DNA of 51,865 bases from Acidobacteriota bacterium (lineage in GTDB: Bacteria; Pseudomonadota; Alphaproteobacteria; Acetobacterales; Acetobacteraceae), in the NCBI GenBank assembly GCA_903970435.1, contig CAJCIS010000292.1:1-51865 (forward strand), written 5' to 3'. Under the pieces are notes generated by a model. The model saw nothing but the letters and a program-made list of their open reading frames with translations, was not told where the DNA came from and did not search any database. A program made the translations under genes and the position numbers. Below, one piece after another: positions 895 to 9,151 of this stretch (positions are counted from its first letter, which is position 1; each line of letters opens with the position of its first letter).

Positions 895-2584
895 CTAGCT
901 GTTTGCCCCTGACGCGTGCCGGGCGGCAACGTAGCCGAACGTCATCGCCGGCCCTAGCGTGGCACCGGCGCCGGGGTATGACCCGCCCATCACGGACGCG
1001 GCCGCGTTGCCGATGGCGTACAGTCCCGCAATGACCCGATGTTCGCTGTCCAGGGCTTGCGCGTTCGCATCGGTCAGAACACCGCCCTTGGTGCCGATGT
1101 CGCCAGGATACACCGGCATGGCATAGAACGGCTTCTGTTCCAGCGGGAAAAGATTCGGGTTCGGCTGCACTTTGGCATCGCCATAATACCGGTCGTAAGC
1201 CTGGTGCCCGCGCCCGAATTCCTGATCCTCGCCCCGCCTGGCGCCCGCATTGAATTTCGCCACCGTCTCCTCGAGCGCGCCGGCGGGAAGGCCCAGCTTG
1301 CGCGCCAATTCTTCCACGCTGTCCGCCCGCACCAGCAACGCCCGCACCGCGCGGCGAAACATCCAGTCGGGAATGCGCGGCATGATCGGCCCCATCGGAT
1401 ACAATCCGCGGAAACGCGCATCGAAAACGATCCAGCTTGGCGCGGTTCCCGCGCCCGGCGCGTCGGCCTCCAGCATCCGCTTGCCGGCCACATGATACGA
1501 TGCCGCCTCATTCATGTAGCGCCGGCCGGCCTGGTTCACCATGATACATCCCGGCAGGGCGCGTTCATAGAACAGCGGCCGCGCGCGCGGCTCGTCGGCG
1601 ACCTTTATCACCGGCGCCCACCAGGCTTCCGCCAGCAAATCCGTGGCAACCCCGACCGCCTGCGCCGCCACCAGGCCATCGCCGGTATTGTTCGGCTGCG
1701 ACGCGCTCCAATCCGGGCTGGTCGGCGCCGGCAGATAGTCCGCCCGCAACGTACCGTTCCGCTCGAAGCCACCGCAACCCAGAATGACGCCGCGCCGCGA
1801 TCCGCACCTTCCTGCCGTTCTGCGACGCGACCGCCCCCACCACGCGGCCGTCCTGCCTGACCAATGAAACAAGCCCTGTATCGAGCAGCAATTTTCCGCC
1901 CTTGGCATCCAGCGCCAGCTTCAGCCGGCCCATCAGCGCATTGCCGAACACCAGAAACCGGCTGCGGGAGCCGCGCAGCCTCTGCTTCACATCCGAAACA
2001 TACCGCCAGATCACCTTCGCCAGAATTTTCTGCCAACCCGGCGCTTGCGTAATCATCGGCGCGGACTCGTACATCGTCCACGGTATGACACCGAATAGCA
2101 TCGCACTCGGATGCGTCGGCCGCAGCGTATCGAAATCGGCGCCGAGCGCGCTGGCGTGAATCGGATTGCAGTCGTGCGTGCGGTAGCCCAGCTTGCCGCC
2201 GGGCAATTCGGCATGATAGTCGGTATATGGGATCGCAACAAACTTCAGGCTCGTTGCACGCTCCAGAAAATCCAGCATCGCGGGTCCCTGCCGCACATAG
2301 GCCCAGATCCGCTCATCCTCCACCGCGTCCCCGGTCAGGGCCTTGATGTAGGCAAACCCCTCCTCCGGCGTATCGGCCGCGCCCGCGGCGGCGGCCTGGC
2401 GGCTGGCGGGGATCCATACGGCGCCGCCCGATGTCGCCGACGTGCCGCCGAACTGGGCGCTCTTTTCGATGACCAGAACGCGCGCGTGGTGGTCGGCCGC
2501 GGTCACCGCCGCGGTCAGCGCGCCGGCACCCGATCCCACCACCAGGATATCGGTTTCGATGTCCCACACCGTTTCGCTATCCAC
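895..2584 (-). pseudogene. KstD-like FAD-binding dehydrogenase with a frameshift
   Basis: Two overlapping frames together encode one protein of about 563 residues, the normal size of 3-ketosteroid delta-1-dehydrogenase-like flavoproteins. The 5' part has the FAD-binding GSGAGALTAA and the family-type GGTSATSGGAVW segment. The 3' part continues with GVILGCGGFERN and ends with an FAD-binding GGSYPGAGATLGP segment. The frame changes near 1795-1806, where one base appears to be missing after KVRIAA. The start is taken as the GTG at 2584, because it precedes the first beta strand (ETDILVVGSG) by about ten residues. It would oxidise a steroid A-ring or similar cyclic ketone. One lesion in otherwise intact sequence could also be a sequencing error. 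Confidence 0.75.
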
Positions 2585-2785
2585 GCGTCCCCCCGTCCCG
2601 CATGCTGGCAGCCGCGGTGCAAAGCCGCAATCCGGCATCGAACCTAGCCGCGATTGCCGGTTTGCGCAAAGCAAGGCCCCTTCCAGCCACGAATGTCGCT
2701 TGCCTTGCAGCGCACCGGCAGCCTAAGCAGGGACCCATACGAAGCCCTGGCCAGCCTCGGGCGCCATCGATCAGGGAAATTTGCC

Positions 2786-4403: not shown

Positions 4404-5828
4404 TTAAGCCACCGATCCGTACGCGCGCCGCGGAAACAGCTTGGTGAGAAGCCGCGCCAATGGCCCCTGTGCCGCGGTGCCGCCCAACGCCGGCGCACGC
4501 GCCAGCCCGGCTGCGAACTGCGGCGCGTGATGCAGCGCGCGGTGGCCCGCCGCGGCGGCCAGTTGGCCGTGCCGAAGCACGCCCATATCGATCGCCGGCA
4601 ATGCGTCATCGCCATGGGTATCGGTGCGGTCGAGCCCGAGCTCGGTCCACACGGCGTCGAGAGCGGAAATAAATTGGTCGATGTCGGCGTCCGAATGGGC
4701 GGGGGACGGCGTCAGCCGCAGCCGCTCGGTGCCCACCGGGACGGTGGGATAGTTGATCGGCTGCACGTAGATGTCGTGCCGCTCGAGCAGCATGTCGCAC
4801 ACCCGCTTGCACATCACCGCGTCGTTCACCATCACCGGCACGATGTGGCTGGGGTTTTCCAGATGCGGCAGCCCCAGCTCGGACAGGCGCTCGCGCACCT
4901 GCGCCACACGCCGCTGCTGCTGCGCGCGCTCCAAGCCGCTGGTCTTGAGGTGCCGGATGCTGGCCACGGCACCCGCGGCCACCGATGGCGGCAGCGCGGT
5001 GGTGAAGATGAAGCCGCTGGCGAAGCTGCGGATGAAGTCGCACAGCGCGGCCGACCCGGCGATGTAGCCGCCGACGACGCCGAACCCCTTGGCCAGCGTG
5101 CCCTCGATCACCGTCAACCGGTGCGACAGCCCCTCGCGATCCGATATGCCGCCGCCGCGCGGGCCGTAAAGGCCCACCGCATGCACCTCGTCGAGGTAGG
5201 TCATGGCGCCGAATTCGTCGGCGATGTCGCAGATCTCCGCGATCGGCGCGATGTCACCGTCCATCGAGTAGACCGACTCGAAGGCGATCAGCTTGGGCCG
5301 GTCGGGGTCGATTTCGCGCAGCACCCGCCGCAGGTCCGCCGTGTCGTTATGCTTGAAAATGCGGCATTCGGCGCGGCTGTGCCGGATCCCCTCGATCATC
5401 GAGGCATGGTTGGACGCGTCCGACACCACCACGCATTTCGGAATGCGGCTGGCCAATGTCGCGAGCGACGCCCAATTCGACACATAGCCGGAGGTGAACA
5501 GCAGCGCCGATTCCTTGCCATGCAGATCGGCAAGCTCGCGCTCCAGCATGACATGGTAATGGTTGGTGCCGGCGATATTGCGGGTGCCGCCCGCGCCGGC
5601 GCCGCACCGGTCCAGCGCCTCATGCATCGCGGCCAGCACGGCCGGGTGCTGCCCCATGCCAAGGTAGTCGTTCGAACACCACACGGTCACCCGGCGGCGC
5701 TTGCGGCCGTTGACGTGCGTGGCGTTCGGAAACGCGCCGACGTGACGTTCCAGATCGGCGAAGATGCGATAGCGCCCCTCGGCCCGCAGCCGGTCCAGTT
5801 CAGTGCGGAAGAACGTCTCGTACTTCAT
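4404..5828 (-). CDS. hemA: 5-aminolevulinate synthase with C-terminal extension
   Basis: PLP enzyme condensing glycine and succinyl-CoA to 5-aminolevulinate, the first step of the C4 (Shemin) tetrapyrrole pathway in the cytoplasm. Visible family features are [11 protein letters not shown] near residue 50, [13 protein letters not shown] (76-88), the Asp motif [11 protein letters not shown] (212-222) and the PLP lysine K247 in EGTLAKGFG. Homology ends near residue 404 (VWTELGLDR). The last 70 residues are an Ala/Leu/His-rich extension with no recognised domain; typical bacterial enzymes are about 405 residues. It is 12 bp downstream of the puhE fusion, so it is transcribed with the bacteriochlorophyll genes. 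It may be the only ALA synthase or a PGC-dedicated copy; the window cannot tell. Confidence 0.95.
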
Positions 5829-5840
5829 CTCCGGCTTCCC

Positions 5841-7724
5841 CTACGCAGCCTCACCCGTGACGGCGCAGGCCTGAAACGCCGCGCCCAGTCTTTCCTCGTC
5901 CACCTCGCGGCCGATGGCAACCACACGCGCCGCCTCATCCTTCCCGGCGGCGAAGGCCGCCATGCTGGCGCGCCCTCCCGCGACGTCGAAGCGCACCCAA
6001 CCGTTCCCGGCCTGGGCAACACCCTTAACCCGTTCGACCTGCCCAAACCTTCCACTTACCACAGCTTCCAGGACATCTTGCAAAATTTCCGCGTCACAGG
6101 CCACCGGCAAATGTCCGCTCCAGGATTTCAGCCCCAACGCATCGTGCGCGGCATGATCATGCGCGCCATGATCCGGCGCATGGCTGGGGTCATGGCCGTG
6201 TGAATGCGCGCTGGCATGCCGCGCGGCAGGCGCATGTCCCGGGTCGCCCAGGCGGCCGTCGTGCGTGTGCCCGTGATGCTCGCCATGATGAGGCTCGGCA
6301 TCCTTATGGTCATGGCCATGCAGCGGCAGAACGTTGGCGGCCGCCGCATCGGGCAACGAAGCGGGGCGCGGCGAAACCGCCAGGATGGCGCTGTCGTCGA
6401 GCTGTCCAAATCGGGCCGCGACGACCGCAGCCGCCGGCGCAATGCCGCGCACCGTGGTTGCGATCAGCCCCAGCACCACCGGCGGAACCAGGTCGGCCTT
6501 GTTGATGACCACCCGGCCGGCCGGAATGATCTGCGCCTGCAAATGCGCCTGCATGCGGCCGAAATCGGCCTGGAAGCTGCCGGCATCGAGCACCGTCGTC
6601 ACATCGATGCTGCGCACCACCGGCGCCAGGTCCGGCGCGTTCAACACCCGCAGCAACGACGCCAGATCCGCCACGCCCGACGGCTCGATCAGCACCCGCT
6701 GCGGCGCATAGCGTGCCACCACGTCGTTCAGTTGCCGCGCCAGGTCGCTCTTCAGCGAGCAGCAGATGCAGCCGTTCGGCAGTTCCACCACCTCGGCGCC
6801 TTGCCCCGACAGCAGGCTGCCATCCACGCCGACGGACGCGAAATCGTTCACCAGCACGATGGTGCGGCCGCCATCCGCCGGTTGCGCCAGCAGGCGCCGC
6901 AGGAACGTGGTTTTCCCCGCGCCCAGGAACCCGGCCACCACCACCGCATCGAACGGCGTCTTGGTGTCGCGCGACGCCAGCCCCCATTCCCAAAGCTTGC
7001 CGGCCGGCAGCGGCAGCACCAGGAACCAGTGCTCCAGAATGGCGAACGCCATCATGGTGGCCACGAAGGTCGCCCCGCTGCGCTGGAAATTGTTCGCCCC
7101 ATGCGCCGCGGCATGTTGCGCCATCAGCACCAGAATAACCGTGCTGACGGTGACCGAGACCGGGAACAGCAGGTTCATCGGCTTCTTGGTCAGGAAGCTT
7201 TTCAGGAAGCCGAGATGCTCCGGCAGGAACTCCTCGTTCAAATTCCGCACGCCGAGGAACACGTTCAGCTTGGCGCTCTGGTGCATCCACCACAGCACCA
7301 TGAACGTCCAGGTGCCGATCTGGTTGGGTGCGTGCCACGTCAGCGCCACCACCAGAACGGCCGACGCAATGATCGCCAGCTCATGCCACAGGCTGGTCTG
7401 TACCGCGTGCACGAAATGATCCCATCCGCGGCAGCCTTCCGGACACGGCGCTTTCCGCGGGCCGGTAACATAGCCCATGTAAAAGCTGATTTCCTGCCAG
7501 CCCCACGCGACCACGCCGCACGCGAAGGCCACATAGGCCCCGTGCGTGGTGGTATCGTGCGCACTGGCGTGCAGCCCCCACAGCGCCGCAATGGTCAGCA
7601 GCGAATTGAACGCCATGCTGTATTTGAAGGTGTGGCGCGGCAGGCCGTCGAGATAAATGATCAGGCCGGTGCTGAACCACCAGACGAAAAGGCAGAACAG
7701 GATGGCGTCTAGGTAGAGGAACAT
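5841..7724 (-). CDS. puhE: PuhE fused to a COG0523/CobW-type metal-chaperone GTPase
   Basis: One open frame of 627 residues with no internal stop. Residues 1-250 are a complete PuhE (photosynthetic complex assembly protein 2): several membrane segments, HELAIIASAV, NVFLGVRNLNEEFLPEHL and the usual end EHWFLVLPLP...LWEWGL. Residues 258-625 are a full COG0523 GTPase: Walker A GFLGAGKT (265-272), ELPNGCICC with the CxCC metal site C319/C321/C322, EPSG (347-350), NKAD (408-411), a loop of about 60 residues with over 20 His (469-528) and a CobW C-terminal domain (about 535-615). The GTPase should face the cytoplasm. PuhE in Rhodobacter influences bacteriochlorophyll production; COG0523 proteins deliver Zn, Co or Fe. 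It sits between acsF and hemA. I do not know this fusion from the literature; the metal and client are unknown. Confidence 0.93.
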   Translation of the reverse strand: MFLYLDAILFCLFVWWFSTGLIIYLDGLPRHTFKYSMAFNSLLTIAALWGLHASAHDTTTHGAYVAFACGVVAWGWQEISFYMGYVTGPRKAPCPEGCRGWDHFVHAVQTSLWHELAIIASAVLVVALTWHAPNQIGTWTFMVLWWMHQSAKLNVFLGVRNLNEEFLPEHLGFLKSFLTKKPMNLLFPVSVTVSTVILVLMAQHAAAHGANNFQRSGATFVATMMAFAILEHWFLVLPLPAGKLWEWGLASRDTKTPFDAVVVAGFLGAGKTTFLRRLLAQPADGGRTIVLVNDFASVGVDGSLLSGQGAEVVELPNGCICCSLKSDLARQLNDVVARYAPQRVLIEPSGVADLASLLRVLNAPDLAPVVRSIDVTTVLDAGSFQADFGRMQAHLQAQIIPAGRVVINKADLVPPVVLGLIATTVRGIAPAAAVVAARFGQLDDSAILAVSPRPASLPDAAAANVLPLHGHDHKDAEPHHGEHHGHTHDGRLGDPGHAPAARHASAHSHGHDPSHAPDHGAHDHAAHDALGLKSWSGHLPVACDAEILQDVLEAVVSGRFGQVERVKGVAQAGNGWVRFDVAGGRASMAAFAAGKDEAARVVAIGREVDEERLGAAFQACAVTGEAA

Positions 7725-7784: not shown

Positions 7785-8849
7785 CTACCATGCGGGACTG
7801 AGCCTTACGCTGGCCGGCAATTCAGCCGACTTGCCGGGCAGGATATACAACCGCGCGAAGGTCAGCCCGGCCGCGGCCTGCAACGCCAGCGCCTTGACGC
7901 GGCCGCCAATACCACCGGCCGCCTTCGCCGCATTGATGGCGGCCGTCAGCCGCGACAGCCGATCGAGGCCGGCCCTGAACACCGGACTATCCAGATCGAG
8001 CGTCACCGGAAACACCTGCTTGGAAATCTCGGTCGTAATACGGAACACTTTGAAATCGTAATCCGTCGGATCCAGCCCCAGCGCCGCATGGAATTCCGGC
8101 CTTGCATGGTCGCGCACATACATCGTCGCAAACACCGCAAGCTGGAAAAACTTGATCCACAACTTGTTCACGCCGCGCAGCAAATCCGGATTGGCCCGCA
8201 TCAGCAACGCAAACGCCTCGCCGTGCCGGAATTCGTCGTTGCACCACTCGCGAAACCATTTGAAAATCGGGTGAATGCGATTTTCCGGGTTCCGCTCCAG
8301 CGCCCGGAATATGGTGATATAGCGCGCATACCCGATCTTCTCGGACAGATACGTGGCATAGAAAATGAATTTCGGCTGGAAATAGGCGTATTTCTTCGCC
8401 CGCGCCAAATATCCCAAATTCACGTTCGCCTTGTAGTCGCGCAGCGCGTCGTTGATGAATCCCGCATGGCGCGCCTCGTCGCGGCTCATATAGCCCATCA
8501 GCTCGCGCATGTCGGGGTTCTTCAGCCGCTTCCTGATTTCACTATACAGCACGCAACCGGAAAACTCCGCGGTGACCGAACTCACCAGGAAATGCAGGAA
8601 TTCGGCCCGCAGCGCCGGCGGCATCGCCACCGGATCGACCGCATCGAAATCGGCGTTGCGAACAAAATGCCCCTTGTTCACGTCGCGCCTGAACTCGGCC
8701 ATCAGAAGGTCCCAGTCGGCGCGCACCGCGCTCACATCGATCCGGTCCAGCTTGGCGAAATCAGTGGTGTAGAAGCGCGGGTTCAACAGCGTGTCGGTGC
8801 GCGCGAGATCGGTGCTGTCGGCCTGGCTGGTAATTTCGGTCGTGGTCAT
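7785..8849 (-). CDS. acsF: Mg-protoporphyrin IX monomethyl ester oxidative cyclase (aerobic)
   Basis: O2-dependent diiron cyclase that closes ring E to give divinyl-protochlorophyllide. It is 354 residues, as usual for AcsF. Diiron ligands are visible: E95 in [11 protein letters not shown]125-A-R-H128 in [10 protein letters not shown] and E206-F-R-H209 in [10 protein letters not shown]. The start ATG overlaps the stop of the upstream 101-residue gene by four bases, so the two are translationally coupled. The O2-dependent enzyme in the superoperon implies pigment synthesis in the presence of oxygen; whether the O2-independent BchE also exists cannot be seen here. Confidence 0.96.
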
Positions 8850-9151
8850 CGCGCAGCCTCCACGGGGGCAAAACTCACTTCGTACAGCTCGGTAATTTCA
8901 GCCACCGACGTCAGCCGGGTCCATAGCCGCGTCAGCCAATTGGCCCGGATGATGGTCGCCGTGCAGGACCGCGTGAAACAATCACCGAAATCGATCCTGT
9001 CCGGCACACCATGCACGAGCACCCGGTCGCCCGGATAAAGTGTCACCCCTTCCGGGAAGGCATGCGCATGCACGCTTTGCGGCGTCACCTCGATATCGAG
9101 CGTGCATGGCACCTCGAAACGACGCGGCGTGGCGGCAAACCCGGTCCTCAT
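8846..9151 (-). CDS. Conserved-position PGC protein of unknown function between puhC and acsF
   Basis: A soluble-looking 101-residue protein with no signal peptide or membrane segment. It is beta-rich in appearance ([35 protein letters not shown]) and has two cysteines (C58, C63). It overlaps puhC by four bases upstream and acsF by four bases downstream, so it is coupled to both and is surely expressed. Small proteins occur at this position in other PGCs, but I cannot name this one. Its placement suggests an accessory of the cyclase or of reaction-centre assembly. Confidence 0.75.

Follow-up and report, generated by a model that had tools for sequence, protein, structure and literature searches.

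PuhE proteins (TIGR03055; DUF3623, PF12291) are encoded in the gene order puhABC-hyp-acsF-puhE-hemA in Roseobacter and Sphingomonadales (PMC3176799). A separate family, the COG0523/G3E GTPases, which includes YjiA, ZigA, CobW and Nha3, is characterized by a P-loop, a CxCC motif, an NKxD motif, a His-rich loop and a CobW_C domain. To our knowledge, most members of the COG0523 family have no known client. A G3E chaperone joined to its own client has a precedent in IcmF, where a MeaB-type chaperone and its client mutase form a single protein (PMC9164220). The locus described here lies in a window of 51,865 nucleotides, by which we mean the whole stretch of DNA that was analysed. It encodes a full-length PuhE in the gene order given above and differs from the described PuhE proteins in that a complete GTPase, a His-rich loop and a CobW_C domain are added at its C-terminus. 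The added part shares all of the COG0523/G3E features listed above; however, the fused GTPases form a clade of their own, share no more than 43% identity with the stand-alone paralogs encountered, are joined to a seven-helix membrane protein, and in some members lack the CxCC motif or the whole G domain. As in IcmF, a G3E metallochaperone is covalently joined to a putative client, but IcmF handles cobalamin for a mutase whereas PuhE sits in the membrane and has no known cofactor. Among open-access papers, we found none mentioning PuhE along with either COG0523 or CobW; Pfam/InterPro architecture listings may contain the fusion.

The PuhE-GTPase fusion in the window is real. An earlier note on this DNA had described a single frame of 627 codons joining PuhE to a COG0523 GTPase, and both the open reading frame and the Pfam and NCBIfam profiles bear this out; the strand, which that note left unstated, is minus. 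The frame begins with an ATG preceded by an AAGGA-like ribosome site and contains no internal stops. Its features and those of its neighbours are as follows.

5841..7724, minus strand: fused open reading frame, PuhE plus COG0523/G3E GTPase, 627 aa; supported by profiles and kept in about 50 loci
6963..7718, minus strand: PuhE (DUF3623) domain, residues 3-254, seven predicted transmembrane (TM) helices; PF12291, E 3e-111
7491..7493, minus strand: E78 in predicted TM3, identical in 186/186; candidate metal ligand
7380..7385, minus strand: H114-E115 in predicted TM4, identical in 184/186 and 186/186; candidate metal ligands
7029..7034, minus strand: E231-H232 in predicted TM7, identical in 186/186; candidate metal ligands
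6948..6962, minus strand: junction KTPFD, residues 255-259, a linker of about 5 residues
6423..6947, minus strand: G3E/COG0523 G domain (cobW), residues 260-434; PF02492, E 8e-40
6909..6932, minus strand: Walker A/P-loop GFLGAGKT, residues 265-272
6759..6770, minus strand: CxCC metal-binding motif CICC, residues 319-322
6492..6503, minus strand: guanine-specificity motif NKAD, residues 408-411
6144..6320, minus strand: His-rich loop, residues 469-527, predicted to be disordered
5865..6128, minus strand: CobW_C domain, residues 533-620; PF07683, E 2.5e-9
7785..8849, minus strand: acsF, upstream of puhE; TIGR02029, E 2.7e-144; adjoins most unfused puhE too
4404..5828, minus strand: hemA, 5-aminolevulinate synthase, downstream of puhE; TIGR01821; found beside unfused puhE too

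The protein scored 342 bits against the NCBIfam PuhE model TIGR03055 (cut-off 164), and its cobW G domain and CobW_C domain scored 136.8 and 37.3 bits, above the Pfam gathering scores of 20.7 and 22, respectively. The P-loop, CxCC and NKxD motifs expected of a COG0523 protein are all present, as the earlier note had read them, and so is the His-rich loop, with 59 residues rather than the 60 claimed. Two equivalog models returned scores below their cut-offs: the cobalamin-related CobW (TIGR02475) gave 108.5 bits against 332.1 and the zinc metallochaperone ZigA (NF038288) gave 78.9 bits against 600. The fused gene is located within a puh/bch photosynthesis cluster, where profiles confirmed acsF and hemA as its flanking neighbours, in agreement with the earlier reading, and bchL, bchH and lhaA were recognized by reading the open reading frames only. 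Between puhC and acsF, a 101-aa open reading frame (8846-9151, minus strand) represents the "hyp" gene and has no Pfam or NCBIfam match. Elsewhere in the window (895-2674, minus strand), a FAD_binding_2 flavoprotein gene is spread over two overlapping frames (profile positions 1-195 and 190-414), and this frameshift either marks a pseudogene or stems from an indel error of the assembly.

A scan of 84,980 species genomes returned 57 loci, the majority of them with the same fusion, which recurs in about 50 non-redundant, independent loci. The genera with the fusion include Acidiphilium, Acidocella, Lichenicoccus, Aurantimonas, Jiella, Fulvimarina, Pararhizobium, Lichenibacterium, Caenispirillum, Roseospira and others; uncultured Acetobacteraceae carry it as well, and Fulvimarina pelagi, Acidiphilium rubrum (L044) and Caenispirillum salinarum are among the isolates. 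Because the same fusion is found in this many independent loci, isolates included, it is due neither to chance nor to a local assembly error; the profiles and the dN/dS values given below likewise rule out a chance long frame. This counters the possibility of an error at the junction, which the earlier note had raised against its own claim. The GTPase half was searched against 80 genomes with PuhE: 22 have the fusion (split over two contigs in one of them) and none has a stand-alone ortholog of the fused GTPase, the next-best GTPase matches in these genomes reaching no more than 43% identity. The window genome itself has one other COG0523 gene, which is stand-alone and encodes 321 aa. The junction falls at the same place throughout the fusion family, with a linker of conserved length and few residues between the domains. 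The architecture is therefore genuine and inherited.

The earlier note had also named, as part of what would refute its claim, separate genes in nearly all PuhE relatives. This does not apply within the fusion clade, yet PuhE overall is mostly unfused and full fusions are a minority. Length alone misleads as a sign of fusion: several open frames of more than 400 aa (e.g. L101, L173) merely extend through GC-rich sequence on either side of a puhE that is not fused, and were rejected as evidence. In the plasmid records, no full fusion was found. In the complete genome of Jiella pelagia, the fused gene (L072:7950-10149) is broken by a frame change within the GTPase domain.

All full fusions form one clade of the 100-row PuhE tree (33 rows, support 84/95; an earlier, larger tree was also made), with some unfused losses inside it. 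The fused GTPases form one clade in the G-domain tree as well (support 100), and the inner groups broadly match. Three architectures were observed, namely the full PuhE-GTPase-CobW_C, a PuhE-CobW_C form that lacks the GTPase, and PuhE on its own. In the short form (L158, L160, L174, L184, L187-L193, L197, L198, L205), PuhE is followed by a tail of about 100 residues without a G domain. These tails score 49-93 bits on the CobW_C profile of the fusion, where stand-alone COG0523 proteins do not exceed 27 bits; Pfam independently ranked CobW_C first for five of them, two of the five over the cut-off. The PuhE of Pelagibius L074 has retained CobW_C in decayed form, together with 'EQPRIVAIGQKLDR' and a short run of His residues. 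The short forms sit outside the full-fusion clade at no fewer than two places in the PuhE tree. On the simplest reading of these trees, the deep branches of which are weak, the fusion would have arisen once, long ago, and then been lost repeatedly; alternatively, CobW_C may have been transferred a second time. This erosion series from the full fusion to PuhE alone is new in this analysis, as are the loss of CxCC with its relaxed constraint, the conserved residues of PuhE and the Thiodictyon locus described below. As a separate observation, short His-rich stretches occur in the tails 3' of PuhE in the Pelagibius bins L074 and L075.

The P-loop is retained with small changes in all fusions examined. 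The CxCC motif has been lost in three fusion lineages, represented by freshwater Acetobacteraceae bins (L063/L066), Roseospira (L068/L070/L083) and G019 (L138), in which the P-loop and NKxD are still present. Nei-Gojobori dN/dS values for the G domain were 0.03-0.12 in proteins with CxCC, similar to those of PuhE, versus 0.17-0.52 in those without it, as calculated from few pairs and for two of the three CxCC-less lineages. By this measure, the GTPase domain is under relaxed constraint in the two lineages tested. Since dN/dS is raised where CxCC is gone, metal handling is probably the task for which the GTPase has been selected, and the relaxed constraint thus supports a metal role.

The AlphaFold2 model of PuhE has seven helices with a pLDDT of 81. 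With the C-terminus placed in the cytoplasm, the positively charged loops are the cytoplasmic ones, and this positive-inside pattern predicts that the GTPase end is cytoplasmic, at the membrane. The model of the full-length fusion is weaker than that of PuhE (pLDDT 77, pTM 0.59), with pLDDT below 50 for residues 450-528, where the His loop is disordered. YjiA (1nij, 4ixm) is the best PDB match of the GTPase part by both sequence and fold, and also that of the full-length model; PuhE alone gave no credible fold match in PDB searches with Foldseek (best E 0.2) and VIA (best match a designed helical barrel, Z 8.7). Across 186 different PuhE sequences, both fused and unfused, five charged or His positions reach a conservation of at least 97%: E78, H114, E115, E231 and H232. 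Asn134 and Asn154 are conserved too. From this conservation we infer that the five charged or His residues are a candidate metal site, although they could bind pigment or protons instead.

It is likely that the fusion places a metallochaperone-type GTPase on PuhE. Our preferred reading, to which we assign a probability of roughly 0.4, is that of a membrane-anchored metallochaperone fusion in which the GTPase metalates the PuhE joined to it, with PuhE itself as the client and zinc as the metal. The His-rich loop and CxCC would gather a transition metal, zinc in the first place, with iron, manganese and cobalt also possible. GTP hydrolysis would then pass the metal to the joined PuhE, where E78, H114, E115, E231 and H232 would form the receiving site, and PuhE metalation would be made robust under metal scarcity. 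Since most PuhE proteins function in its absence, the GTPase would be optional. A pure delivery model leaves the PuhE-CobW_C forms that lack the GTPase unexplained. The earlier note had already proposed a metallochaperone at the membrane; the real fusion, the predicted cytoplasmic GTPase end and the relaxed constraint without CxCC all speak for that part, while little speaks for the clients that it proposed.

The Thiodictyon bin D14_bin-1308 has an intact gene for a fused PuhE that does not lie in a photosynthesis cluster (L071:3-2318), and a ZIP transporter gene (PF02535, E 5e-34) starts 40 bp after it. ZIP proteins may transport zinc, iron or manganese. As the same bin has a second, normal puhE in a photosynthesis cluster of the same GC content, the fused gene at this one locus of a metagenome bin looks like a spare copy tied to metal uptake. 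It is possible, and we suggest it more tentatively than the preferred reading itself, that PuhE is an unrecognized integral-membrane metalloprotein with an E/HE/EH site and that the fusion is self-metalating and moved with the photosynthesis genes, being kept in this purple sulfur bacterium as a spare copy with a ZIP importer. A simple consensus scan for Zur boxes upstream of the fused genes outside the photosynthesis cluster gave nothing above background. Palindromes of the form TGTCAA-N6-TTGACA, which are PpsR/CrtJ-like (TGT-N12-ACA), lie just upstream of two such fused genes (L039:4154-4171 and L055:7781-7798); the count of 5 relaxed sites in 1.6 Mb versus 1.6 expected is suggestive only.

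We rank second the possibility, unlikely but still a live rival, that the GTPase delivers iron to the diiron cyclase AcsF and that PuhE is the membrane docking site. The acsF gene is directly upstream in 196 of 231 puhE copies (redundant loci counted), among 393 Pseudomonadota genomes sampled, 31 have both PuhE and AcsF and none has just one of the two, and the CxCC-less fusions under relaxed constraint include those of Roseospira without AcsF. However, acsF is also found beside unfused puhE, and it still adjoins the fused gene in L063/L066 and L138, where CxCC is gone. No AcsF match was obtained in any of the 19 PuhE-bearing Chromatiaceae genomes sampled or in 4 Roseospira/Rhodospira genomes with PuhE; in Thiodictyon syntrophicum, the gene after puhE is bchE. 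PuhE must therefore have an AcsF-independent job in the Chromatiaceae, and these 23 genomes rule out the strict tie hinted at by the co-occurrence. Together with the intact fusion in the Thiodictyon bin, in which no AcsF was found, they argue against AcsF as an obligatory partner or client.

A somewhat weaker candidate, rather unlikely in our judgment, is a metal- and GTP-sensing switch in which the GTPase tunes PuhE, and hence bacteriochlorophyll output, with no handover of metal. In the short forms, CobW_C stays attached to PuhE although the GTPase is missing, so this C-terminal domain may exert its effect on PuhE itself, and the P-loop and NKxD persist in forms without CxCC. Such a switch would also fit the role of PuhE as a negative modulator of bacteriochlorophyll production, reportedly proposed by Aklujkar and Beatty. 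On the other hand, the relaxed G domain in the CxCC-less lineages tested suggests that metal handling is the main task, and the characterized COG0523 proteins are viewed as chaperones.

It is improbable that PuhE is a mere anchor and that the client of the GTPase is some other cytoplasmic protein, such as an enzyme of tetrapyrrole synthesis that uses zinc or iron, of which HemB is an example. COG0523 proteins do have diverse clients (PMC9164220), and hemA is downstream of the fusion. Besides acsF, however, no metalloenzyme gene is shared beside the fusion in the loci examined. Moreover, hemA, the product of which is a PLP enzyme lacking a metal, is downstream of unfused puhE as well. The earlier note had taken acsF and hemA as pointers to the client, which has little support since both flank puhE whether it is fused or not.

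A role in Mg/Zn branching of the pigment, which the earlier note had linked to the Zn-bacteriochlorophyll of Acidiphilium, is very improbable: the Zn-bacteriochlorophyll species A. rubrum does carry the fusion, but so do marine, plant-associated and lichen-associated genera, and we know of no Zn-bacteriochlorophyll makers in Fulvimarina, Aurantimonas, Lichenicoccus or Caenispirillum. The least probable of all is a true CobW chaperone for the cobalamin-dependent BchE, for which the Pfam domain name cobW might speak; its CobW score is below the cut-off, and 14 of the 22 genomes with the fusion, the window genome included, have no BchE, which also rules out the fusion as a marker of BchE or B12.

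So far, PuhE has stood as an orphan among the assembly factors of the purple bacterial photosystem. With a fused metallochaperone and near-invariant Glu and His residues, its function becomes testable: whether it holds a metal, which one, and by whom it is loaded. The intact fusions, those that have lost CxCC, those that have lost the GTPase and those that have lost everything provide a natural mutant series. If the preferred reading of a GTPase metalating its own PuhE is true, the fusion would give the COG0523 family a case, at the membrane, of a chaperone covalently linked to the client that it serves.
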